The position numbers were made by a program, and so were the translations under genes. Shown here piece after piece: positions 17,058-56,331 of a DNA stretch of 64,000 nt. Below the pieces are notes generated by a model. It did no database searches, was not told where the DNA came from, and saw nothing but the letters and a program-made list of their open reading frames with translations. Source of the DNA: Entomobacter blattae (GTDB taxonomy: Bacteria; Pseudomonadota; Alphaproteobacteria; Acetobacterales; Acetobacteraceae); assembly GCF_014672835.1 (NCBI RefSeq), contig NZ_CP060244.1, forward strand, positions 1,963,001 to 2,027,000, read 5' to 3'. Position 1 is the first letter of the stretch. Each line of letters begins with the position of its first letter.

Positions 17058-18491
17058 CTATCTACCAGGTTGATCCACAGCTTCATCATTCACACCCCAA
17101 AGCTTGTCTTCAACGGCTCTGTAATAGGCTGTATAGTCATAATGAGGAACGTTGAGCTTTAAGTCTGCTGCTGTAAGGCGACCAATAGCAGCAGCCACAT
17201 TATAACTGGATAAAACCAGGCTGCTCAAATTCTGCACCAAGGCAATCTGAGAGGAGAGAAGGGTCTGTTGTTGCTGCAGTACTTCAAGCGTGGTACTCGT
17301 TCCTACAATAGCTTGACGCTCCACACCATCCAACGCCACCACGTTCGCTGCAATCGCAGCCCGACTGCTGTTAATAGAGGCTTTACTCGCCATAAGCTGC
17401 TGCCAGTTCGAGGCTGCAAGTTGCAAAGCAGATCGCCTTTGAATATCTACATTCTTATGGGCAGCTGCCACCTGTTGCTTGGCCTGACGGATAGCAGCAT
17501 ATTCGCTCCCGCCTTGATAGACAGGAACAGTTAACTGTAAAATAGCTGACTTATTATAAGTAACCTGGCGGTTATATTGCTGGTTCACGTTTCTCTGAAA
17601 GCCCAGAGTTGCCGAAAGTTGCGGCATTACGGCAGCAAACGCTACCGAGACAGCATCTTTAGCAGCAGATTCTTCAAACAAAGCATTAATAATATTGGGG
17701 TTATTAGCTACCGATTCAGCAATCGCCTCTTGTTGTGTTTTCACAGGCAAAACCAAAGGCTGAGGGGGCACCAGATTAGGAGGAGGAGGTGTTCCCACTA
17801 TTTGCATATAAGTGGCTTGTGCCGTTTGCAAAGTACCTTCTGCCTGTTGTCTCTGTGCCCTTGCACTCGCTAACGCTGCTTCAGCCTGGGCTACGTCGGT
17901 TCTGGTAATTTCGCCAACCTTAAAGCGCTCATTTGTCGCTCTAAGCTGCTCTTGCAGAACCTTTTCGTTATTGATTCGTAACTGAAGAAGCTGCTCATCC
18001 TGAATAACTTCAACATAAGCTTGAACAACATTATAGAGAATCTGCTGTTCTGTGGCTAAAAGCTTGGCCCTTTCTGCCATAACCTTGTTAACAGCCTGAT
18101 GGGTAGAGGCCGTTGTCTTCCCCCCCGTATAGACATTTTGCTGAAGGTTTACACCAGCCGTGTACCCTGGGGTTGAATACCGCCGGTTATTGAGCGGTAA
18201 ATTATCGGAGGAAAAAAAGTTACTGGCACCACTATAATAACTGATACTGGAGCTTGCTGAAATTCTGGGCCTCCAGCCAGCTAAGGCAGCAGGAACCCCC
18301 TCATCTGTTGAACGTAAGGTTGCTCGTTCTTGCTGCAAAGTAGGGTTTGTAAGATAGGCGGAGGCCATAGCTTCTTGCAAAGTATGAGGGATGAAAGTGG
18401 GGGATCCGCTGCCATCATATTTCTGTGCAAGGGCTGTACCGCTACACAATAAAGCGGCAAGACCAAAACTAAGACTATAAGATGCTTTCAT
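17058..18491 (-). CDS. tolC: TolC family outer-membrane protein
   Basis: TolC proteins form the trimeric outer-membrane channel of type I secretion and multidrug efflux systems. The 477-residue protein starts with a signal peptide (MKASYSLSFGLAALLCSGTALA), followed by HTLQEAMASAYLTNPTL and two repeats of the long-helix outer-membrane-factor domain: TGGKTTASTHQAVN in the first and VPVYQGGSEYAAIRQAKQ in the second, as in TolC of alphaproteobacteria. It is not a lipoprotein, unlike the NodT paralogue in this window. It lies downstream of pcm. It may serve several inner-membrane partners elsewhere. Confidence 0.93.
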   Translation of the reverse strand: MKASYSLSFGLAALLCSGTALAQKYDGSGSPTFIPHTLQEAMASAYLTNPTLQQERATLRSTDEGVPAALAGWRPRISASSSISYYSGASNFFSSDNLPLNNRRYSTPGYTAGVNLQQNVYTGGKTTASTHQAVNKVMAERAKLLATEQQILYNVVQAYVEVIQDEQLLQLRINNEKVLQEQLRATNERFKVGEITRTDVAQAEAALASARAQRQQAEGTLQTAQATYMQIVGTPPPPNLVPPQPLVLPVKTQQEAIAESVANNPNIINALFEESAAKDAVSVAFAAVMPQLSATLGFQRNVNQQYNRQVTYNKSAILQLTVPVYQGGSEYAAIRQAKQQVAAAHKNVDIQRRSALQLAASNWQQLMASKASINSSRAAIAANVVALDGVERQAIVGTSTTLEVLQQQQTLLSSQIALVQNLSSLVLSSYNVAAAIGRLTAADLKLNVPHYDYTAYYRAVEDKLWGVNDEAVDQPGR

Positions 18492-42333: not shown

Positions 42334-43179
42334 GTGACGCCAGATTCTCAACCCCGACAGCATGAAACAATTCTTGTTTTAAAACCGGAAAAGGGCGCAA
42401 AACGCTTTGGGAGTGCCTTGCGCGATATTACAGATGGACTAAAGTTTTGGAGACTGTTTTGCAAACTCAGTTGGCTGGATATCAAGCTCCGCTATCGAGG
42501 ATCCCTTCTAGGCCCCCTATGGATTACCCTTTCCACTACTGTTATGATTGCCTCCATGGCTGGTATTTATGCCTATCTTTTTCATATGAGCCTTAAAGAC
42601 TATCTTCCATTTTTAACCATTTCCATCGTTTTGTGGGGGTATGTTCATTCTACCATTAGTGATGGAACGACAGCTTTCACCACAGCACAAAATATTATCC
42701 ATTCCTTAAGAATTCCTTTCTCCATCCATGTTTTTAGAACACTCATCCGTAATGTTTATCTTGTTCTTCATAACATTATCGTTGTCGTTGCTGTATTTGC
42801 CATTTACCGTATTCTTCCTAACCCGCTCATGACATTGCCAGCCCTGGTCCTATGGAGTGTAGATGCCTTTTTTCTATGTTTGCTTTTAAGCACTCTGGGG
42901 GCACGTTATAGGGATGTCTCTCCCATTATTGCCAGTATCCTTCAAATCCTTTTCTTCATTACCCCGATTATATGGAAACCTGATCTCATCTATCTTGGGC
43001 GACAATATATGCTTCTTAACCCGTTTTTCCCGCTGATAGAAATTATGCGCGCACCCCTTATGGGAGAAATTCCGCGCCTTTCCATTTGGGTATTTGCTGT
43101 AGGATATAGTGTGCTCATATGGCTGGCAGGTTTTCTTGTATTTACAAAGGCCCGGGCACGGCTGGCCTACTGGATTTAA
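42334..43179 (+). CDS. wzm: ABC-2 type polysaccharide export permease (Wzm/KpsM type)
   Basis: This 281-residue inner-membrane protein has about six hydrophobic helices and the family pattern DIKLRYRGSLLGPLWITLSTTVMIASMAG near the N-terminus (the KLRYRGSLLG motif), then RYRDVSPIIASILQILFFITPIIW and LNPFFPLIEIMRAPL. It is the channel part of a transporter that exports O-antigen or capsule polymer, working with the Wzt ATPase 13 bases downstream. The first codon is GTG at 42334 with AAAGG before it; no in-frame ATG fits better. No glycosyltransferase genes are nearby, so the polymer cannot be named. Confidence 0.9.
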   Translation: MTPDSQPRQHETILVLKPEKGAKRFGSALRDITDGLKFWRLFCKLSWLDIKLRYRGSLLGPLWITLSTTVMIASMAGIYAYLFHMSLKDYLPFLTISIVLWGYVHSTISDGTTAFTTAQNIIHSLRIPFSIHVFRTLIRNVYLVLHNIIVVVAVFAIYRILPNPLMTLPALVLWSVDAFFLCLLLSTLGARYRDVSPIIASILQILFFITPIIWKPDLIYLGRQYMLLNPFFPLIEIMRAPLMGEIPRLSIWVFAVGYSVLIWLAGFLVFTKARARLAYWI

Positions 43180-43192
43180 CCGGACTGACGCC

Positions 43193-43948
43193 ATGGCATT
43201 CATACATATTAAAAACCTAGATATTTTTTTCCCTATCTATCATGGGGATTCCCAAACTCTAAAAAAACAAACCGCTAATACCCTGTTTAAACTTTCAGGC
43301 AAAATTGTCCGCGATGAGCATGATCATTATACAGTAAGGGCTCTTCACAATATAACCTTCTCTATCACCTCTGGCGAGCGTATCGGGCTTGTTGGCAGTA
43401 ATGGTGCTGGCAAGACAACTCTTTTACGGGCCATGGGAGGAATTTTTGAGCCTGTCAGAGGATGTATTGAAATTGATGGTTCTGTAAGCACCCTTCTCGA
43501 TACAAATCTGGGAATGAATCACGAATTAACAGGGCGTGAAAACATTCAGCTACGCTGCCTTTATAATGGTTATGAGCAAACCAAGACAAAGGAAATAGAA
43601 CAAAATGTTGAAGAATTCTCAGAGCTAGGGCCGTTTATCGATATGCCTATAAAGGCTTACAGTTCTGGCATGACCTTGCGGCTAGCTTTTGGACTGGCCA
43701 CAGCGATAAATCCCACCATTCTTCTGATGGATGAATGGTTCATGGCAGGGGATGCCTCTTTTATGGAAAAAGCTCGCTTACGAATTAACACCATGGTTGA
43801 AAAAGCTGATATTGTTGTTATTTCAACCCATCAGCCTGATATAATTCGTCGGTGGTGTTCGCGTGTCATTTGGTTAGAAAATGGGGAAGTAAAAATGGAT
43901 GCCCCCCCCGATACAGTTCTAAATGTTTATCTTCCATCTGTTGAATAA
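43193..43948 (+). CDS. wzt: Polysaccharide export ABC ATPase (Wzt/KpsT type)
   Basis: This is the ATPase partner of Wzm, about 251 residues from the ATG at 43193: MAFIHIKNLDIFFPIYHG, Walker A GSNGAGKTTLLRAMGG, the MNHELTGRENI segment, signature YSSGMTLRLAFGLA, Walker B LLMDEWFMAGDA and switch His STHQPDIIRRWC. The signature and the MDEW variant are typical of Wzt/KpsT. There is no C-terminal carbohydrate-binding domain, so it is the short KpsT-like form. A broken partial copy of its first codons lies about 1.5 kb downstream. Confidence 0.92.
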   Translation: MAFIHIKNLDIFFPIYHGDSQTLKKQTANTLFKLSGKIVRDEHDHYTVRALHNITFSITSGERIGLVGSNGAGKTTLLRAMGGIFEPVRGCIEIDGSVSTLLDTNLGMNHELTGRENIQLRCLYNGYEQTKTKEIEQNVEEFSELGPFIDMPIKAYSSGMTLRLAFGLATAINPTILLMDEWFMAGDASFMEKARLRINTMVEKADIVVISTHQPDIIRRWCSRVIWLENGEVKMDAPPDTVLNVYLPSVE

Positions 43949-44738: not shown

Positions 44739-44861
44739 ACGGCTGAGCCTACTGGATTTAACCGGACTGATGCCATGGCATTCATACACATTAAAAACCT
44801 AGATATTTTTTTCCTATCTATCAGGGAGATTCCCAGACACTAAAAAACAAACCGCTAATAC
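44739..44861 (+). pseudogene. Degenerate partial copy of the wzm 3' end / wzt 5' start
   Basis: These bases repeat 43159-43281 with about nine in ten identical by eye: the last seven or so codons and stop of wzm, the spacer with the wzt ATG, and the first 30 or so wzt codons. Several one-base indels break both reading frames, for example ttttcctatc instead of ttttccctatc, and a shortened A run. Similarity stops abruptly at CTAATAC. It follows the 23S fragment and is a decayed duplicate. Confidence 0.88.
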
Positions 44862-44978: not shown

Positions 44979-47900
44979 TTAAGCGGTTTTTAGCCTTCTT
45001 TTTGCGTCTGAAACAAAAGGGGTATATCCAAAATCTCTTGTTTCATCGTCTCTTTTCAAATACGGGCCAGCACTCGTAATGCACAGCTCCAAAAGCAAGC
45101 CGCCGGTTTTGTTGACCTGTAATCCTTCATCAAGTGGAAGAACAGCGTTACCATTGGTCCAACGGCCCTGGTCACTGGAATCAGCATCATACCAACCATA
45201 GTGTGTGCCAAGTTTAAGGTAACCTGCCAACTCTACATCGTGATTATCATACCACAATTTCGCATGGTCAACCTGAACACCCAGTTTACGACGATCGTCA
45301 ACAAAGGCACCAATAACATCCCTTGGCGCTGAAGACCGGGAAAGAATCCGCACTTCGCTCGTATTAGAAGGCAGCATGAAGAAGAGAGACTGACCTTTTC
45401 TGCGGATTGCCTCAATGGTTATACCTTTATCTGTTACCAGCTTCAGATCTGGATCTTTAACCATTTCGACCTTTTCCATTTCAACAGCAACACCTTCTGC
45501 CAAAGCACGGTCGTTCAACTTCTGCCAGATTGGCTCTACAGTTGCTTGGTCAACGGTAAGAGGAAGAACACTATCAACACCCCATTCCAGATGAGCCTTT
45601 TTGAAGGGAACCACATTGCCTTCACGGCGGAAGGTTGAACGGTTGCCCGTATCAAGATAGCTTTCCGAGAGTAAACCTTCAGCTTCTACTAAGGAGTGCT
45701 GAGCCGTTTCTATATGGTAGTAAGAGTAGCTCTCCATAGTACGATCTTCGTAAATGGTTTTGCCATTAACCAGCATACGGGCTGGAATAAGGTGGCCTTC
45801 TACATACAGGCTATGTTCTGGTGTTACCACAACATCGGCAGAAGGAACACCCTCAGAAATTGCACCTGCCTTAATGCGAACTGGCCAATTATCACCAGCT
45901 CTGGCATCTTCAACACGAGCAGATCCCGTCCATACAACTTCTTTCAGCTCTCGTTTGCCATCCCCAGACGTAGCCCAGATCCGCTGACCTGAACGAATAT
46001 CTTCAACAGGACGTAAACCATCTTCTGTAGCAAGGCGAACACCTTCAACAAAACAAACCTGAATGATTGTTCCACCCTGACCATCATCAAGGAAGCTGAG
46101 CTCACCAGACTGACTATTGACACCAGCAACGTTTGTAAAGTTAATGGTATACTCATCTGTGCTACCAGCAGGATGATATTTAATGGTAATTTTATTCCCT
46201 GTGAAAACAGCCTGTGTAATCGTGCTTTTTTCAATACCTGACAGGTCGATAGCCCCGGTATAACCATTATTTTTACCAAACCCTTTAATGTAAGTATTGA
46301 CGGTAACATCTTTTAACGGAATGCCATCCAAGCGAAGCAAACCAACACCGCCACCCTTACTATCAAGACCTGTTCCATCATCAATCAGGTTAACAGTAGC
46401 AGTAAAGTTTGAGCCATCGTCAGGCTGATAGTTTAAATCTACCACTCCAGTAGCAGCCACATTAATCGATGGCTGAATAGGAGAGTTAGAGTTGATAACA
46501 ACATGGCCTTCATTTTGGACTTTAATGGAAGTTGTTGTATCGGCACTTCCCCCTACGTTACGAATACCATCCTGACCAATCGTCAAAGTGGATTTGTTAA
46601 CGTTTATGACGGAGTTCCTATCCATATATAACTGACTGTTTAAAGATACTGTTGAACCAGCCGTTGCATTAATCTGGCTGCCCGCATCCAGATAGGTCAG
46701 GTTATTTAAAGTTAAACCAGAATTATTATCAACCGCGACAGTTGTAGCAATATGGTTTGATGTCCCATTCAGGTTAAGGTTAGCAGCATTCTCAATTTTC
46801 AGCTGACTGTTTTTAAGAGTAGCTGTATCCGCCAAGTTAACAACACTTCCTGATTGGACAAGGACATTCCCTGTGAGGGTCGCATTTGCGCCAATCGCAA
46901 TGTTACTATTATCCTGAATGGTGAGGTTCCCATTTTGGGTAAAGGCTTTTCCAACAGTTCCCACAGTTTTATCAATGGTTAATGTACCATTGAGCATGCT
47001 GTTTTCACTTACAGTTAAAGTGCTTGTTCCACCTAAAGCCCCAGAGAGGGTAGAATTACCAAGATAAATGGTTCCGTTTAACTGAAGGCTTGCTGTACCC
47101 GCTGATGAGGAAATGTTCAAACCATTGGTGATGAAGTCATTCTTATTAAGAACCACTCTTCCATCTACAACGGTTGCTGTATCAAGGATAGCATTGCTTT
47201 CAAGATTGAGGATACCGCCATCATTAATGGCAATGTGCCCCTGACCTAAAACACCCCCCATGGTATTCAACGATGATGGGTTACTGTTATAAGCCGTTAC
47301 GAAAGTTGTTGCATTGCTATCGTCAAACACAGATTTTACATCGACTGTAGCGCCAGAAGCTGCAGAAAGGTTAGTGCCTACACTATTGTTTCCGTTAAGG
47401 GTAACAACTGTATTGGCCCCTGTAGCTGACAAATTATCAAAATTTGCCCCATTAACAGCGTTAACCAGCGTACCATCAGCAGCGGTAATTAAACCGTTAA
47501 TCTGGTCTCCTTTTTCCAGTGTAATCGTCGTGCCGATACCAGCTGCATTGGTTGCGGAAAGGCCACCAGCCAAGCTTGTGCCACTCAAAATATCGACGGT
47601 TCCCCCGGTAACATCAAAATGAGGATTAACAACCAGATTGGCTTGCCCAAATGTTAAAAGACCATTTTGAACCTGCACAGCATTAGTGGATTGAAAGTCA
47701 CCATTCACAACAACCTTTGCATCTGCGCCATTTTCGACAAGTGTACCAAAATTGGTAAGATACCCAACATTCAGTGTTCCACTTGTCACAGTTGCCTGGC
47801 CACTAATAACCGGGCCTGCAGCTGTTTGAGTGCCATTGTAGATTTGGCCCAGATTAACAACCGTTGGTACATCTGCAGAGGCCTGGCTAATGGAAAGTGT

Positions 47901-49784
47901 ATTAAAGTTATCGCCATTATCAAGCGCGTTAACCGTACCCCCCGTTACAGCTGTGTTACCCACAACAGAGCTTTGGTTAAAATTCAGAAGGCCACCAAAA
48001 ACATTCACATCAGCCAACACCTTACTGGACGTAACATTCAGCGTTCCACCAGTTTCATTGACAGACCCTATAACGTTGGTTCCTCCGCCAGTGGTAGTCA
48101 CTGTAGTAGTAGCTGACCCCTGCTGATTTAATGAACCTGAAAGAGTAACATTGTTTAATGTACTTTGGCTATTTCCAGAAAAAATAGCAGAGTTCAGGCT
48201 ATTGCCTGTGCCATTTTGGGTAAATTTACCGCTTCCACTAACAGCAATATTATGATAGATGTTCGCGCCCACTAATATCGCTGTACCATCAATGACCTGA
48301 AGATCACCAAACTGAGAGGAATTAGCAGCGGAAAAATTACCATATTGATTATAAACAGCAAAGCCTTGACCCGTTTTTTGGGTAACGACAGAGTTGGCCG
48401 CCAGATTGATATATCCTGACCGAGAGGTGTTACTTCCAGTAGCAGGATCAGCAAAAGTGCCACTATCAGCACTACCAGCCACAACGATGGTACCTGTTGA
48501 AGTAACATTTCCGGCAATATTTAAAATACCACCAGTAATACCACCCCCAACGTCTACATTGCCTAACCCAGAAGAATAATAAGGGTTAAACCCAACATAC
48601 ATGGTTCCTAACGTTGTGTTGCCACTTGTCGTTACTGTTTCTGGAGTATATTTGTATTTAAAGGGATCTAAAAAAGGGATACCAGTCCCTTGGCGGTTAG
48701 CATAAATACCAGAAACAACGACAGCGCCATTGCCAACCGTTGTAAAGCCCGTTCCATCAGTAAGAGTAATAGGGGCTGTGCCTGTAAAAAGTATATTAGA
48801 GGCATTATTAATAGTGGCAACACCACCTGTAAAGTTTACAACGTTTTGTAATCCAACAATCACATTTCCCTGGATATTAGCTCCCCCAAGATTAATTGTA
48901 CTCTTGGTATCGTAATTTCCTGATTGCACGTTAATAACAGCATATTGTGGAACAGTGACCACACCATTGGCCGTATTTACCGTAGTGTTCACGGGCTCTG
49001 TTTTAATAGAACTACCCGTTTCCATATTAACCGTTGAGCCTTTTGTTAATAAGAGCTCAGGAATACTAACACCAGACCCATTCGTATATACTGCATCCGG
49101 TGCAGTGGGGCTATTAAGTAAGCTAATAGAATATTTAAACGTGGTATCTGTTGGATTTCCCACAAAATCCAATGTTGAACCATTTTTAAAGCTAACGTTT
49201 CCTTGCAAAGTAAAGGCATGTTTAATAACAGTTGTGCCGCTATTAAAATTAACAGTTGTAGCACCATTGTTGTTGCCATATTGAAAAACTTGGCCTTCAA
49301 TATAAATGCTACCAGTACCAGTTGTTGGGTTCGCTAACCCGTTCCCGGCATTGAAATCGACCTTTCCACCTTGTCCGGAAATCATAATCGGAACAGAACC
49401 AACTACCCCAGGATTTATTCGGATGTAGAAACTCGAAGGCAATGGTTGGTAATTAAAACCACCTGCAAAGGTTATACCACCAACGCCACGACCAGTTAAC
49501 AAACTTAGAGCATAACTGTTAATAAGGTTGCTGTTAATATTAGCGTCTAGTGCCGCTTGGTTGACGTTCCCTGAAGCATCTGCCGAAATAGCTATATTAA
49601 GGGCATTTGCTAGCACATCCCCTGCATCAGTAAAGTCTTTTCCTGTTTGAGAATTAACCGCCCCATAATTCAACGTGCCTGCTTTGGTCATATCCGCTGA
49701 GGGATCAATAAACGGGTTTGTCGTTGAAGTAGTACCTGTACTGGTAATGGAAGTGGTTCCTGTATTTGAAGTAGTGCCTGACAT
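44979..49784 (-). CDS. Giant Hint-domain repeat exoprotein (1601 residues)
   Basis: The protein has a Ser/Thr-rich start (MSGTTSNTGTTSITSTGTTS), then about 1200 residues of Asn/Thr/Gly/Val-rich repeats (patterns like NGANFDNLS, TVVNLG, GTLNVG) expected to form a beta-helix or beta-roll. A Hint (Hedgehog/intein) domain begins at Cys1244 (VCFVEGVRLATEDG) with the block VVTPEHSLYVEG around His1324. A C-terminal region of about 200 residues follows. Such proteins are common in acetic acid bacteria; surface adhesion with possible self-cleavage at the Hint Cys is inferred. There is no Sec signal and no autotransporter barrel, so export needs a dedicated system not seen here. It has its own terminator and a 494-base AT-rich upstream region. 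Confidence 0.82.
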   Translation of the reverse strand: MSGTTSNTGTTSITSTGTTSTTNPFIDPSADMTKAGTLNYGAVNSQTGKDFTDAGDVLANALNIAISADASGNVNQAALDANINSNLINSYALSLLTGRGVGGITFAGGFNYQPLPSSFYIRINPGVVGSVPIMISGQGGKVDFNAGNGLANPTTGTGSIYIEGQVFQYGNNNGATTVNFNSGTTVIKHAFTLQGNVSFKNGSTLDFVGNPTDTTFKYSISLLNSPTAPDAVYTNGSGVSIPELLLTKGSTVNMETGSSIKTEPVNTTVNTANGVVTVPQYAVINVQSGNYDTKSTINLGGANIQGNVIVGLQNVVNFTGGVATINNASNILFTGTAPITLTDGTGFTTVGNGAVVVSGIYANRQGTGIPFLDPFKYKYTPETVTTSGNTTLGTMYVGFNPYYSSGLGNVDVGGGITGGILNIAGNVTSTGTIVVAGSADSGTFADPATGSNTSRSGYINLAANSVVTQKTGQGFAVYNQYGNFSAANSSQFGDLQVIDGTAILVGANIYHNIAVSGSGKFTQNGTGNSLNSAIFSGNSQSTLNNVTLSGSLNQQGSATTTVTTTGGGTNVIGSVNETGGTLNVTSSKVLADVNVFGGLLNFNQSSVVGNTAVTGGTVNALDNGDNFNTLSISQASADVPTVVNLGQIYNGTQTAAGPVISGQATVTSGTLNVGYLTNFGTLVENGADAKVVVNGDFQSTNAVQVQNGLLTFGQANLVVNPHFDVTGGTVDILSGTSLAGGLSATNAAGIGTTITLEKGDQINGLITAADGTLVNAVNGANFDNLSATGANTVVTLNGNNSVGTNLSAASGATVDVKSVFDDSNATTFVTAYNSNPSSLNTMGGVLGQGHIAINDGGILNLESNAILDTATVVDGRVVLNKNDFITNGLNISSSAGTASLQLNGTIYLGNSTLSGALGGTSTLTVSENSMLNGTLTIDKTVGTVGKAFTQNGNLTIQDNSNIAIGANATLTGNVLVQSGSVVNLADTATLKNSQLKIENAANLNLNGTSNHIATTVAVDNNSGLTLNNLTYLDAGSQINATAGSTVSLNSQLYMDRNSVINVNKSTLTIGQDGIRNVGGSADTTTSIKVQNEGHVVINSNSPIQPSINVAATGVVDLNYQPDDGSNFTATVNLIDDGTGLDSKGGGVGLLRLDGIPLKDVTVNTYIKGFGKNNGYTGAIDLSGIEKSTITQAVFTGNKITIKYHPAGSTDEYTINFTNVAGVNSQSGELSFLDDGQGGTIIQVCFVEGVRLATEDGLRPVEDIRSGQRIWATSGDGKRELKEVVWTGSARVEDARAGDNWPVRIKAGAISEGVPSADVVVTPEHSLYVEGHLIPARMLVNGKTIYEDRTMESYSYYHIETAQHSLVEAEGLLSESYLDTGNRSTFRREGNVVPFKKAHLEWGVDSVLPLTVDQATVEPIWQKLNDRALAEGVAVEMEKVEMVKDPDLKLVTDKGITIEAIRRKGQSLFFMLPSNTSEVRILSRSSAPRDVIGAFVDDRRKLGVQVDHAKLWYDNHDVELAGYLKLGTHYGWYDADSSDQGRWTNGNAVLPLDEGLQVNKTGGLLLELCITSAGPYLKRDDETRDFGYTPFVSDAKRRLKTA

Positions 49785-50278: not shown

Positions 50279-51898
50279 CTATTCTCTTTGCAAAGAACTG
50301 CCTGTTAGATTTGTATCGAGAGGGCTTTTATTATAAGGAACATTTCCAACAGGTTTAGGATTGTCTATTCCTTCATATTGCAGTACGCCTAAACTCCGTA
50401 TATCTTTTCTTTTTGGAAGCCGGGCTTCCTTCCATCCTCCACCCAAGGCCCTAATCAACTGAACACTGGCCTGAATCTGTTGGGTTTTTACCTGAATAGC
50501 ACTAATTTGTGCTGTAATTCTGGCAATCTGAGCTACAATAACATCGAGATAATTGGTTAAAGCCCCTTGATAAAGGGTCATCGTCATAGCTTGTACCTTT
50601 GTACTGGCCGCTACAGCTTGTTTTTGGTCCTCATAACTTTGCCCCAGATGGTTGATATTGCTTAACGAATCCTCCACTTCCTTAAAGGCAGCCAAGACTG
50701 TTGAACGATAATTATCGACTGTTTCCCGATATTTGGCCCAGCTCCTTTGGAGCTCAGCACGCCTTAAACCACCCTCAAACAGCGGTAAAACTGCCATACC
50801 CCCATAGGACCACATACTGTTGGCCAAACTAGCAAGATCAATGCCATTATCCATGAATCCACCAGTAATACTAAAGGTCACATTGGGGTAGAAAGCAGCA
50901 CGAGCAATCCCTATTTCTCGGTTGGCTGCGGCCATGGCACGCTCTGCACTTGAAATATCAGGGCGCCTTTGCAACAAATCTGCCGGGAGCCCCACCGGGA
51001 TAGTGGGAAGCTCAAGAGTTAACCGATCAGCAGGTTGGATTTGAAAACTAGAGGGTGAAACATTAACCAAAATCGCAATGGCATGCAAAATAACGGCCCT
51101 TTTGGCTCGTAATTCTTCCTGAGCGGCCTTAGTCATAGAAAGCTGATTTTGGGCACGAGCTACATCAATTCCAGAAGAGATCGCACCTTGCTGGCGTATC
51201 TTCGTGAGGTGAACAGCCTTTTCATAATAGACTATTGATTCATCATAAACAGCGTTTTGGGCATCCATTCCTCGTAACAAAATATAATTATTGGCCAATT
51301 CAGCCCGTAAGCTCAGTTTAGCTAGTGCATATTCAGCAGCCGCCTGCTGAGCAAAAATTTCCTGTTCTCGTGTTCTGTTTCGTATTAAAGACCAAAAATC
51401 CGGTTCCCATGTTGCAACACCCGAGTAAAACTGCGAGCTCATAGTGACCTGATCATCTCTGGCTCTAAAAAGATTATTGGCCGAGCGCTTATTATTCGAT
51501 CCCCCTGCGGCAATACCGACTTGAGGAAAAAGCGAAGACTCTGCTTCGACAGCCAAAGCCCGTGATTGCGTAAAAATTTCAGCCGCAGCTTGGAGGTCTG
51601 GATTAAGTTTCTCCAAACGGGCCTCAAGGGCATTTAAAATGGGGTCGTTATATAAAGTCCACCAGTCCGAGCGTAAAATACCCTCCCTGGGCGTTGCAAT
51701 CTGAAAGGGCCCTTCCCCATGCCACGAACTAGGAACCACAAACTGCTGGGGATGATAATCCGGTGCCAGATCACAACCGGCCAAAATGGTAGAAGCCCCC
51801 AAGCAATACACCAAACGAGAAATAAAAGGTCTAACGCCCTGATTTTTCCTTTTTAGGGCTTGGCAGCGCAAACCCATACGAGAAAGTCTCCGTAGCAT
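50279..51898 (-). CDS. RND efflux outer-membrane lipoprotein, NodT family
   Basis: This is the outer-membrane channel of the RND pump encoded just upstream. The 539-residue product has an N-terminal extension, then a lipoprotein signal (VYCLGASTILAGC, Cys near residue 42), DLAPDYHPQQFVVPSSW and two outer-membrane-factor domains (ADLLQRRPDISSAERAMAAANREIGIARAAFYP split over the second). The LPADLLQRRPDI motif is diagnostic for NodT-type factors. An ATG at residue 8 is an alternative start. A broken copy of part of this gene lies at 16897-17032. It ends an operon with adaptor and pump. Confidence 0.92.
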   Translation of the reverse strand: MLRRLSRMGLRCQALKRKNQGVRPFISRLVYCLGASTILAGCDLAPDYHPQQFVVPSSWHGEGPFQIATPREGILRSDWWTLYNDPILNALEARLEKLNPDLQAAAEIFTQSRALAVEAESSLFPQVGIAAGGSNNKRSANNLFRARDDQVTMSSQFYSGVATWEPDFWSLIRNRTREQEIFAQQAAAEYALAKLSLRAELANNYILLRGMDAQNAVYDESIVYYEKAVHLTKIRQQGAISSGIDVARAQNQLSMTKAAQEELRAKRAVILHAIAILVNVSPSSFQIQPADRLTLELPTIPVGLPADLLQRRPDISSAERAMAAANREIGIARAAFYPNVTFSITGGFMDNGIDLASLANSMWSYGGMAVLPLFEGGLRRAELQRSWAKYRETVDNYRSTVLAAFKEVEDSLSNINHLGQSYEDQKQAVAASTKVQAMTMTLYQGALTNYLDVIVAQIARITAQISAIQVKTQQIQASVQLIRALGGGWKEARLPKRKDIRSLGVLQYEGIDNPKPVGNVPYNKSPLDTNLTGSSLQRE

Positions 51899-51956
51899 TC
51901 TGTATCTTTCATTATTTTACATGAGGGACAAAGACGTAAGAAACCATATTCCTGTT

Positions 51957-53162
51957 TTAATGATGGTGCTTTTGCTCTGAAGTATGAGAAACAACCGGAG
52001 CGTTATACCCAGGAGTGAGAGGCACCACATTGACCTCTTCCCCTTCCTGAATATCTGCAGGGGGATTGTTAATAATCATATCTTTTTCCTGAATTCCCGA
52101 GAGAATTTCTACATTCACTCCCGTATTATCACCGAGCCGAACATTTTGCAGATGCACCTTGTTTCCTTTTGTCAAAAGGGCAACCTGTGTTCCCGCAGAT
52201 CTAAAGATTAAGGTTGTTTCCGGGATGACTAAAACACCTTTTACATTTGGAACATCAAAGTGCACATGCGCATAAGAACCTGGCCATAAGAAATGGTCTT
52301 TATTATCAATTTCCAGTTCGGTCACAGCTGTCCGCGTTGCGGGATCAAAGGCCCCCGCCGTGGTAAGATATTTGGCTTTAAATACTCTATCCTTATATTG
52401 AGGAAGGTACAAATCTCCCACCAAATCAGGAGTAAGAATATAGGCAAAATCCTGTGGAACAGAAACAAAAATACGAACTTTTTCTATATCGGCTACGGTA
52501 AAAAGCTCGCTGGACCCCCCTTGAGCTTCCATATTTCCACCCGTCTGCCCCACGAAATCCCCCAAGTTAATTTCACGTGAAATGACTGCCCCATCGAAAG
52601 GCGCAACGATGGTTTTAAAAGCCTCTAAAGCCTCAAATTTTTGAACCTCTCGTTGGGCTGCCTCCAGCGTAGCCTGTGCAGCACGGGCTTCAGCAATATA
52701 AACATCAACCTGCATTTTAGCGACGGCTTCTGTTCCTTCTAATGCCTTCCAGCGCTTAGCCCGCAAGGTTGCCAAATCATACTGGGCCTGTTTTACACGG
52801 GCATCAGCCTTAGCAGCAGCATATTGAGCGTCCAGATCTGGGGTATTCAACACAGCCAGGACATCTCCTTTTTTTACCCTTGCTCCGTAATCCTTATACC
52901 AGGCTTTCACATATCCTGGGACACGTGCAAAGATTGTCGCCTGATACCAAGGGACAATATTGCCGGGTAAATCCAGAACCCGCCGTGGAGGCGCAGGCTG
53001 CGGAGAAATAACAGCAACCTTAACAATTGCACTTTTCAGTGTTTCACGCCGTAGACTGTTCATCTCATGTTTACGGTATAAAATACCAAGTCCGGCAATG
53101 ATAAGAGCCAGCAAAACAACACCGAAGCCAATTACTTTTGAAGATTTACGAGAGGCTGTCAT
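51957..53162 (-). CDS. RND efflux periplasmic adaptor subunit
   Basis: This membrane-fusion protein bridges the RND pump and the outer-membrane channel. From the ATG at 53162 it has about 401 residues: an N-terminal membrane anchor (VIGFGVVLLALIIAGLGILY), the lipoyl-like region with GDVLAVLNTPDLDAQ, a helical hairpin, then AFKTIVAPFDGAVISREINLG and the barrel domain with VLVIPETTLIFRS. The C-terminus is His-rich (QKHHH). Its start overlaps the pump gene by 17 bases, indicating translational coupling. A longer frame to 53219 reads into pump codons and was rejected. Confidence 0.93.
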   Translation of the reverse strand: MTASRKSSKVIGFGVVLLALIIAGLGILYRKHEMNSLRRETLKSAIVKVAVISPQPAPPRRVLDLPGNIVPWYQATIFARVPGYVKAWYKDYGARVKKGDVLAVLNTPDLDAQYAAAKADARVKQAQYDLATLRAKRWKALEGTEAVAKMQVDVYIAEARAAQATLEAAQREVQKFEALEAFKTIVAPFDGAVISREINLGDFVGQTGGNMEAQGGSSELFTVADIEKVRIFVSVPQDFAYILTPDLVGDLYLPQYKDRVFKAKYLTTAGAFDPATRTAVTELEIDNKDHFLWPGSYAHVHFDVPNVKGVLVIPETTLIFRSAGTQVALLTKGNKVHLQNVRLGDNTGVNVEILSGIQEKDMIINNPPADIQEGEEVNVVPLTPGYNAPVVSHTSEQKHHH

Positions 53163-56100
53163 TGGGTTTATCCGTCCTCGATTTTTTAGAATGAACCAGA
53201 GCAAACACACAGGGAACAAAAAGGAGTGTTGCTACAGTGGCAACCATAAGTCCACCAATAACAGCCCGCCCAAGCGGTGCATTCTGGGAATTACTCATCG
53301 ACATAGGCAACATTCCAACAATCATAGCCGAAGCCGTCATCAAAACAGGGCGGATACGCTCATAGCCCGCTTCAAGAGCTGCCCGAAGGGCCTCACCATG
53401 GGATTCAAGACGCTCCCGCGCAAATGCCACAACAAGGATGGCATTAGACGTTGCCGTTCCCATACACATGATCGCCCCTGTGAGAGCCGGAACAGAGAGG
53501 GTCGTATGCGTTAGGAACAAGCTCCAGGCTATTCCTCCTAAAGCACCAGGCAAAGCCATAATAATAACGAAAGGATCCAGCCACGATTGAAAGTTCACCA
53601 CAATGAGCAGATACACAAGCAAGATAGAAACGCCCAACCCCCCTATAAGCTGAATATAGGCGTGGTTCATGGTAACGGACTGCCCCCGGATAACCAGAGT
53701 AGAGCCATAAGGAAGCTGTGGCGTTAACTCTTTAACAATTTTGCTGACATCGCCTACAACTCCCCCCAAGTCACGGCCTTCATTGGACGCATAAATATCA
53801 ATAACAGGAATAATATTGTAGTGACTAACCTCTCCAGGAGTGCCAAGCTGAACAATATCGCTCAAGCTGCCTAACATCTGAAGCTGTTTGTTTTTGGGGT
53901 TATTATCACCCCCATCAATAGGAATAGTCTGCAAATCATTCACTGAAGACATCCGCCTCTGAGGCGTGTAAATATTCAGCATATAAGAAAAGCCTGTTTT
54001 AGGGTCCAGCCAGTAAGATTGATGAACCTGGCCACTTCCTGAAAGGGTAATAAGGGCGTTATTGGCTATTTCATCTTCTGTTACGTCAGTTCCAAGGGAA
54101 AATGAACGCTTGGTGTTAACCCTCAGTGTTGGAGTATTCATCGTCTGCTGGATATTGACATCTGCAATACCCGTTACCGTTCGTAACCGGCTGCTAAGCT
54201 TTTGGGCAAAACGGAAATTTGCTTCCAAATCCAGCCCAATAACCTGAACATCAATGGGAGCCGGTAGACCAAAATCTAAAATTTTCGCCGTAAGGTCAGC
54301 AGGCTGAAAAGAAAATTGTGTACCAGGAAATTTCCTGTTCAACCCATCGCGTAAAATCTGCCGATATTCTGCCACAGGTGAGGTATGGTTTTTGAGTGAT
54401 ATTGTCATATCACAATCCTGGGCTCCAATGGTTGGGGTTGGAATAAAAGCCTGATTATGTGGACCTACGGGCAACCCACAATTCACAATAATATTGTCGA
54501 TTTGCCCTGGCAAAAGAGCGGATATCTCCTTGTCAACCATTCCAGCTATATTGCCTGCTTCCTCAATACGGGTTCCTAGCGGGGTCCGCATATGCATCTG
54601 CAAAGAGCTTGATTTAACCTCAGGGAAGAAGTCCCGCCCTGTAAACAACAATAAAAAGAGCGAACAAGCAGATGCGAGCAGAAAAATAAGAATGAACTTC
54701 CCTTTTATGTTTAAAAGCCCATTCAGAAGATTTTTATAGCCTTCACGAAAGGTGATAAACCGCTTTTCAAACCCTATTTGAAACCGGCCAAAAAAACCAG
54801 GAGGAGGAGCTTTGCCCATTTCCTTTGCATGATGGTGGGCAACCTGGGCCTTTAATAACCAATTGGCCATGGTAGGCACTAACGTACGAGAAAGGATAAA
54901 AGAGGCAATCATCGCAAAGATAATGGCTTCGGCCATGGGCATGAACAACCACCCTGAGACACCCGAAAGCTGAAAAAGTGGCAGCCATACAATGCTGATA
55001 CATAAAGTCGAAACAAAAGTCGGAATAACAATCTGGTTGGCGGCATCGATAATAGCTGTTTCCAGATCTTTTCCCATTTCAAGATGAGAGTCGATATTTT
55101 CGATCATCACCGTAGCATCATCAACCAAAATCCCCACGGCAAGCGCTAACCCTCCCAGAGTCATAACGTTAATCGTCTGCCCGGCCCAGCCCAAACCAAT
55201 CAGCGCTGAAAACATGGCCAAGGGGATAGAAGTGGCAATAATGACCGTAGAGCGCCAAGACCCCAAAAATAACAGCACAACAAGCCCCGTTAAAGCCGAG
55301 GCGGTAACCATCTCGCGCAACACATCCGAGACTGAATCCCTAACGAACTCAGAAGCATCGTTCAGCACTTTAATTTCAATACCAGACTCTTTAGGGAGAG
55401 TACGCAATATGTGGGGAATCATTTCCTTAACCCCACTCACCACTGAAAGGGTTGATGCTTCTCCCCCCTTCATGACGACAACCATCACCGCTTGTTTACC
55501 GCCAACAAGAACGGAGTTAGTTTGGGGAGGTCCCCCCAATTGCACATGAGCGACATCGCGGATGTAAACCATGGCATTGCCAACGCGCTTGATGGGAATA
55601 TTGTTAAAAGCCTCCACCGTAAAGGGCGTTGCATTGGTTTGCACCATAAAATCAAACGAGCCGATCTTTTCATCCCCTGATGGAATCACAACATTCTGCT
55701 TGTCTAGTGCTGCATAGACATCCATCGCTGAAAGATGTTTGGCCTGAAGTGAATCTTGGTTAAGATAGACCAAAAGTGCAGTAGGTTTCCCACCATAAGG
55801 GTGGGGTACAATGGCTCCTTCTACAGTCACCAACTGGGTTCTGATCTGATTAAATGAAATATTGTAGAGTTCAGAAGGTGTGAGCTTATCTGAGGTGATC
55901 TGGAGCATAACAACTGGAACAGAAGACGCTTCCAGCTTCATGATCAAAGGAGGAGAGATCCCTGGCGGAAGCTGCTGGACGATCGTTTGCGATAAAGCCG
56001 TAACTTGGGCTTCAGCCTCACCAATTTCTGTACCAGGCTGGAAATAGATGTTAATAATACTCCTACCATAGTAGGAGTTACTCTCCATATGCTCTATTCC

Positions 56101-56331
56101 TTCCACCGTCGCCGTAAGAGCACGCTCGTAATACCCCGTTATACGGCCTGAAACATCGTACGGCATCAGCCCGGAATAGCTCCAAACCGCGGAAACAACT
56201 GGTATGCGTATAGTTGGAAAAACGTCTGTCGGGGTTTTAAACACCGACATAATACCAAAAAAGGTTATTAAAATTGCTAAAACAACAAATGTATAGGGTC
56301 GCTTCAGCGCCGTTACAACGATGGCGTTCAT
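53146..56331 (-). CDS. RND family efflux permease
   Basis: The 1061-residue inner-membrane pump exchanges protons for substrate efflux. It has the RND layout of twelve membrane helices and two large periplasmic loops: N-terminal ALKRPYTFVVLAILITFFGIM, the proton-relay helix with ALAVGILVDDATVMIENI (paired Asp), and the C-terminal half with GAIMCMGTATSNAILVVAFA. It resembles heavy-metal or hydrophobic-efflux (HAE1-like) pumps in the group with short NodT partners. The Asp pair points away from metal pumps, but substrates cannot be read. First gene of the operon; a tandem 19-base repeat lies 32 bases upstream of the start. Confidence 0.93.
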   Translation of the reverse strand: MNAIVVTALKRPYTFVVLAILITFFGIMSVFKTPTDVFPTIRIPVVSAVWSYSGLMPYDVSGRITGYYERALTATVEGIEHMESNSYYGRSIINIYFQPGTEIGEAEAQVTALSQTIVQQLPPGISPPLIMKLEASSVPVVMLQITSDKLTPSELYNISFNQIRTQLVTVEGAIVPHPYGGKPTALLVYLNQDSLQAKHLSAMDVYAALDKQNVVIPSGDEKIGSFDFMVQTNATPFTVEAFNNIPIKRVGNAMVYIRDVAHVQLGGPPQTNSVLVGGKQAVMVVVMKGGEASTLSVVSGVKEMIPHILRTLPKESGIEIKVLNDASEFVRDSVSDVLREMVTASALTGLVVLLFLGSWRSTVIIATSIPLAMFSALIGLGWAGQTINVMTLGGLALAVGILVDDATVMIENIDSHLEMGKDLETAIIDAANQIVIPTFVSTLCISIVWLPLFQLSGVSGWLFMPMAEAIIFAMIASFILSRTLVPTMANWLLKAQVAHHHAKEMGKAPPPGFFGRFQIGFEKRFITFREGYKNLLNGLLNIKGKFILIFLLASACSLFLLLFTGRDFFPEVKSSSLQMHMRTPLGTRIEEAGNIAGMVDKEISALLPGQIDNIIVNCGLPVGPHNQAFIPTPTIGAQDCDMTISLKNHTSPVAEYRQILRDGLNRKFPGTQFSFQPADLTAKILDFGLPAPIDVQVIGLDLEANFRFAQKLSSRLRTVTGIADVNIQQTMNTPTLRVNTKRSFSLGTDVTEDEIANNALITLSGSGQVHQSYWLDPKTGFSYMLNIYTPQRRMSSVNDLQTIPIDGGDNNPKNKQLQMLGSLSDIVQLGTPGEVSHYNIIPVIDIYASNEGRDLGGVVGDVSKIVKELTPQLPYGSTLVIRGQSVTMNHAYIQLIGGLGVSILLVYLLIVVNFQSWLDPFVIIMALPGALGGIAWSLFLTHTTLSVPALTGAIMCMGTATSNAILVVAFARERLESHGEALRAALEAGYERIRPVLMTASAMIVGMLPMSMSNSQNAPLGRAVIGGLMVATVATLLFVPCVFALVHSKKSRTDKPNDSLS

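Follow-up and report, generated by a model that had tools for sequence, protein, structure and literature searches.

A modular Hint_2 protein of Entomobacter blattae that may be exported by type I secretion and processed upon export

RESULTS

The locus

The stretch of Entomobacter blattae DNA analyzed here (the window, 64,000 nucleotides) contains, on its minus strand, an open reading frame with an ATG start preceded by AAGGA. Its 1601-residue product has Hint_2 as its sole Pfam domain, at residues 1243-1379 (E 1.4e-32; 113.5 bits against a cut-off of 28.4). This bears out an initial sequence-only reading, which had described a 1601-residue frame with a late Hint domain. The features used below are:

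44979..49784, minus strand: Hint_2 exoprotein gene, 1601 aa (ORF listing, Pfam)
46056..49784, minus strand: passenger, residues 1-1243; G/T/N/S-rich, pI 4.4, no Cys, 0.6% Arg
46053..46055, minus strand: Cys1244 codon; putative N-S acyl shift nucleophile; Cys kept in 63 of 63 modules
45648..46055, minus strand: Hint_2 domain, residues 1244-1379 (Pfam, AlphaFold, VIA)
45813..45824, minus strand: block B TPEH, residues 1321-1324; TxxH invariant among relatives
44982..45599, minus strand: unnamed C-terminal domain (CTD), residues 1396-1601; motif FVDDRR...LGV...GW...WTNG; predicted helix plus beta-sandwich
44982..45041, minus strand: extreme C-terminus, last 20 aa; poorly conserved, predicted short helix, terminal Ala; candidate type I signal
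17058..18491, minus strand: TolC-family outer membrane channel (TIGR01844 above cut-off); likely outer-membrane component

The passenger is rich in G, T, N, V and S. It had been labeled a repeat region, a label that the sequence does not support: the DNA encoding residues 1-1243 has no detectable tandem repeats, and the protein segment has no internal self-match at E<=1. A beta-solenoid is a plausible fold for it. Sequons for N-glycosylation are not enriched in the passenger (34 versus 31.6 expected). The N-terminus shows no export signal, with a maximal 15-residue hydropathy of 1.21 in the first 80 residues, and no beta-barrel, TPS or signal domain is recognized by Pfam in the 1601-aa protein.

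Between the stop codon of the Hint gene and a neighboring Wzt-like ABC ATPase gene lies a truncated copy (44747-44861) of the 5' part of that ATPase gene (43165-43281), with 97%, 88% and 100% identity over three stretches. The Wzm/Wzt-like exporter beside the gene was considered as an export route and set aside; it looks ordinary and is not common to the loci of relatives. The same holds for the RND-NodT pump, whose genes resemble ordinary efflux genes and are not common to the 80 loci of relatives. Just past the window end (L109:8380-11870; G000:C1:2032380-2035870) are genes for an HlyD and for an ABC exporter whose C39 peptidase domain is of the active type.

A constant C-terminal module behind variable passengers

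Four Hint_2 genes, including that of the window, are present in the genome, a single contig of 2.70 Mb. These paralogues have only the C-terminal module (~345 aa, Hint plus CTD) in common, and their passengers are unrelated. A scan of a genome collection gave 511 relatives, the best 80 of which come mostly from Acetobacter, Gluconobacter and Gluconacetobacter; Labrys contributes two of these. Among relatives with complete reading frames the module is again ~345 aa and the passenger runs from ~130 residues upwards; the window passenger matches that of no relative. A constant module behind variable passengers is thus the pattern across the four paralogues and ~55 relatives. Of 150 Acetobacteraceae genomes, 119 have Hint_2, with up to 24 matches per genome. 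In the open-access literature we found no publication about Hint_2 proteins from acetic acid bacteria.

The Hint domain

The AlphaFold model of the module has a mean pLDDT of 81.5, mostly at least 90 in the Hint part. Structure prediction of this region, proposed in the sequence-only reading as a check, yields a confident Hint fold. In the PDB it matches BIL domains and inteins (Foldseek E 1.3e-5). VIA gives Z 13.1 to the BIL domain 2lwy and the intein 5i0a (rmsd 2.1-2.2 over 117-119 residues; 2.1 over 117 for 2lwy) and Z 11.5 to Hedgehog 1at0 (rmsd 2.6 over 119).

Cys1244 is the first of only two cysteines in the whole protein. This residue and a PEHS block had both been pointed out from sequence, correctly, the latter being part of the block-B motif TPEH. 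In 29 aligned modules Cys1, T78 and H81 (TxxH), H114 and H120 are invariant, and a wider check found the Cys, the TxxH and the later His pair kept in 63 of 63. The residue preceding the Cys varies (V, T, P, A). Motif alignment places E1374-S1375 where inteins have their C-terminal His-Asn, with the downstream nucleophile also absent; the Glu is invariant in relatives. Glu-Ser at this position resembles the end of the Hedgehog Hint domain.

The residues for the N-S acyl shift are thus kept, and judging from these motifs the first step of Hint chemistry is to be expected. Together with the predicted fold, they make autoprocessing at 1243/1244 likely. Splicing is unlikely because the C-terminal Asn and nucleophile of inteins are absent; the expected outcome is release or transfer of the N-terminal part, in line with what the sequence-only reading had suggested. 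BIL domains (2lwy of C. thermocellum; B-type review PMC7765530) share the Hint fold, Cys1, TxxH and an occurrence in variable secreted-type proteins. The window family differs in carrying a conserved domain of ~205 aa after the Hint domain and in having ES at the HN position of inteins.

An unnamed C-terminal domain

The CTD (~200-205 residues) has invariant W, DDRR, LG, GW and WT.G positions. It has no Pfam or NCBIfam match and no convincing sequence match in the PDB. Its model (pLDDT 82.9) comprises a helix and beta strands, a poorly ordered linker and a short C-terminal helix; Foldseek finds no match to it at E<=0.001, and the best VIA score (Z 5.5) is a weak one, on common beta-sandwiches. 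The terminal residue is Ala in 42 of 58 modules.

Two genomes (G105, G014) encode a divergent CTD-like stretch that lacks Hint and is fused to another conserved region. These Hint-less fusions (L188:1408-2463, L189:1345-2472) join the CTD-like domain to a conserved 'GFESLGxDCExGFVQxHxDATPxLGLFRW' region, which has no Pfam match. Because a CTD-like region exists elsewhere without Hint, the CTD is not purely an export signal.

Passenger composition and RTX relatives

The passengers of 57 proteins have a median pI of 4.05, contain 2.7% Lys+Arg against a background of 9.8% in the other window proteins, and include six Cys in 23,298 residues. RTX proteins mostly have a pI of 3.2-4.9 (PMC3034196), and basic residues are counter-selected in type I cargo (PMC3933643). 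By sequence, then, passenger composition matches that of published type I/RTX cargo.

RTX GGxGxDxUx nonapeptide repeats (PF00353) were found neither in the protein nor anywhere in the genome. Exporters with a C39-like domain normally go together with RTX cargo (PMC8277102). Because no RTX repeats were found there, the type I secretion system of this genome, described below, would otherwise be without recognizable cargo.

In genomes G103 and G106, Hint plus CTD stands behind true RTX repeats (HemolysinCabind E 3.3e-10 and 1.2e-21), which places the module itself among type I cargo. These RTX-Hint_2 proteins (L186 in G103, L187 in G106) have an architecture typical of type I cargo and, like the window protein, the Hint_2+CTD module and no N-terminal signal that we could see. 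The window protein and its close relatives differ in lacking RTX nonapeptides and in having S/T/N/G-rich passengers. In the acetic acid bacterial members RTX repeats thus appear to have been replaced by other passengers, the direction of this change being our interpretation. G103 and G106 have no close homologue of the operon ABC described next; other type I HlyDs are present.

A type I secretion operon

ABC, HlyD and TolC components are all encoded in the genome. The first two lie in an operon, ABC-HlyD-Sel1-GT, at G000:C1:1092021-1101834 (L108). The ABC protein is HlyB/LssB-like with no Pfam C39 match, the HlyD scores above its type I cut-off, and the other products are a Sel1-repeat-like protein and a 1313-aa glycosyltransferase (GT2+GT4). 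A 66-residue fragment at G000:C1:1136203-1136400 (L110 region) is a partial duplicate, sharing 97% identity with the 3' part of the operon HlyD.

The gene order ABC-HlyD-Sel1-GT is kept in all 18 intact loci sampled from Hint-containing genomes. In G040, which lacks both Hint and CTD, the locus (L130) reads ABC-HlyD-Sel1, and the ~3 kb left on the contig contain no recognizable GT. The operon copy of G125 is broken. This complete genome of ~2 Mb has lost the integrity not only of the secretion operon but also of metH and of most Hint genes (L129, L132-L154); in its congener G045 the operon and most Hint genes are intact. We considered this co-decay as evidence and regard it as only suggestive, since control regions of G125 are also lower in coding density.

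Large exoprotein secretion linked to a glycosyltransferase is also a feature of HMW1/HMW1C-type adhesin-glycosyltransferase pairs. HMW1 (PMC3012730) uses two-partner secretion and N-linked glycosylation; here the system is type I, the enzyme is of the GT2+GT4 kind and its substrate is putative.

Co-occurrence of Hint, CTD and the operon HlyD

Co-occurrence with secretion genes had also been suggested as a check, and Hint and CTD do associate with the operon-type HlyD (cut-offs: HlyD E<=1e-70; CTD E<=1e-10; strong CTD E<=1e-20). Counts are given as both/first only/second only/neither, and shared ancestry inflates every p value that follows: across the 150 Acetobacteraceae genomes, Hint versus HlyD gave 98/21/9/22 (p=3e-8) and CTD versus HlyD 81/4/26/39 (p=2.7e-14); within Hint-containing genomes CTD still predicted HlyD (p=4e-8); with one genome per genus (102 genera) CTD versus HlyD gave 57/2/16/27 (p=2e-11), and within Hint-containing genera 57/2/9/13 (p=1e-7). 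With strong CTD matches, HlyD was present in 50 of 50 genomes. The association is partly phylogenetic, the statistics having been computed without a species tree.

The exceptions among the 150 genomes are the nine that have HlyD without Hint, and some that have Hint without HlyD. In keeping with the association, the complete small genome G065 lacks Hint, CTD and the type I system alike. Labrys has non-RTX Hint+CTD proteins and no close ABC homologue (best 33%). The operon adjoined a Hint gene at none of 80 loci; adjacency to the transporter is common for type I cargo and not required. A type I exporter was found near a Hint gene at one of the 80, L065 of A. pasteurianus, and is of the C39-active type.

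DISCUSSION

The account we favor, somewhat above even chances as a whole, is that the window protein is a modular exoprotein exported by type I secretion, with Hint processing gated by export. Here an acidic passenger particular to the gene (1-1243) would precede a Hint_2 domain for autoprocessing (1244-1379) and the CTD of ~205 residues, which would carry or include an uncleaved C-terminal export signal. The sequence-only reading had held that the usual export signals are missing. That stands for the N-terminus only; composition, the constant C-terminal module, the RTX relatives and co-occurrence point instead to C-terminal type I secretion.

Type I export itself we consider probable. Type I cargo is threaded unfolded, and large cargo bears a C-terminal signal (PMC8277102). 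The protein would thus leave C-terminus first and unfolded through the HlyB-like ABC (with an inactive C39-like domain), the operon HlyD and a TolC-family channel. Decoration of the passengers, rich in Ser, Thr and Asn, is probably the task of the 1313-aa glycosyltransferase of the operon and would take place in the cytoplasm. Our confidence is moderate because of the Labrys exception, the location of the Hint genes apart from the operon, and the one Hint gene beside a C39-type exporter.

Processing by the Hint domain we hold to be fairly probable, a little less so than the export route. Cys1244 would attack the bond between residues 1243 and 1244, giving a thioester that might be resolved by water, releasing the passenger, or by a surface nucleophile, attaching it. 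Processing would be confined to the outside because a Hint domain cannot act unfolded and this one could fold only after translocation; otherwise cleavage in the cytoplasm would part the passenger from its signal.

It might be objected that the Hint domain is a structural relic of a protein that is exported intact by type I secretion and never cut. The variable residue before the Cys and the lack of a C-terminal Asn or nucleophile fit this objection, which we find doubtful in view of the Cys, TxxH and later His pair conserved without exception in the 63 modules. These catalytic residues are constant while the window passenger matches none of the relatives', as selection for catalysis predicts. 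Another objection concerns the choice of exporter: the C39-peptidase ABC and HlyD ~20 kb past the Hint gene and outside the window (L109), or several unspecific type I systems, might carry the cargo. Such an exporter is present in the genome, and a homologous ABC+HlyD pair (65%/57% identity) is the one adjoining the Hint gene in A. pasteurianus L065. This reading is unlikely, given that the C39-type pair occurs at just one of 80 Hint loci and that active C39 exporters typically handle small double-glycine cargo, while it is the inactive, C39-like ones that handle large cargo with C-terminal signals (PMC8277102).

That the protein is not secreted at all, remaining cytoplasmic or leaving only by lysis, would suit the missing N-terminal signal and the lack of a secretion system common to the gene neighborhoods of relatives. 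It is hard to reconcile with passengers whose 23,298 residues are nearly devoid of Cys and basic amino acids, with the RTX-Hint-CTD relatives and with the co-occurrence with type I secretion, and we think it improbable. Least probable by far is that the protein leaves as an autotransporter, by two-partner secretion or by an RND/NodT route through the adjacent tripartite pump (50279-56331). Passenger composition does resemble that of adhesin stalks and the NodT-RND genes do adjoin the Hint gene. Against the first two routes is the absence of beta-barrel, TPS and signal domains in the Pfam results; against the third, the pump has the appearance of an ordinary RND efflux system, and none of the 80 relative loci contains its genes.

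A stronger version of the type I account, which we advance only as a long shot, is that Hint plus CTD acts like Hedgehog Hog, transferring the glycosylated passenger after export from the Cys1244 thioester to a hydroxylated acceptor on the cell surface; this might be a hopanoid or an exopolysaccharide to which the CTD binds. Hog (Hint plus a sterol recognition region) likewise has a C-terminal domain after Hint and no C-terminal Asn; a difference is that the window protein has no signal peptide. If this version were true, acetic acid bacteria would use export-gated, Hint-catalyzed surface attachment.

The work defines a conserved domain, the CTD, that had no name. If the type I account with export-gated processing is correct, it would supply an export route and a processing logic for a large and little-studied family, and would describe a type I system that has a C39-like domain, exports cargo free of RTX repeats and is tied to a dedicated glycosyltransferase. 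The action of Hint on secreted bacterial proteins could then also be tested in food bacteria that are easy to work with.
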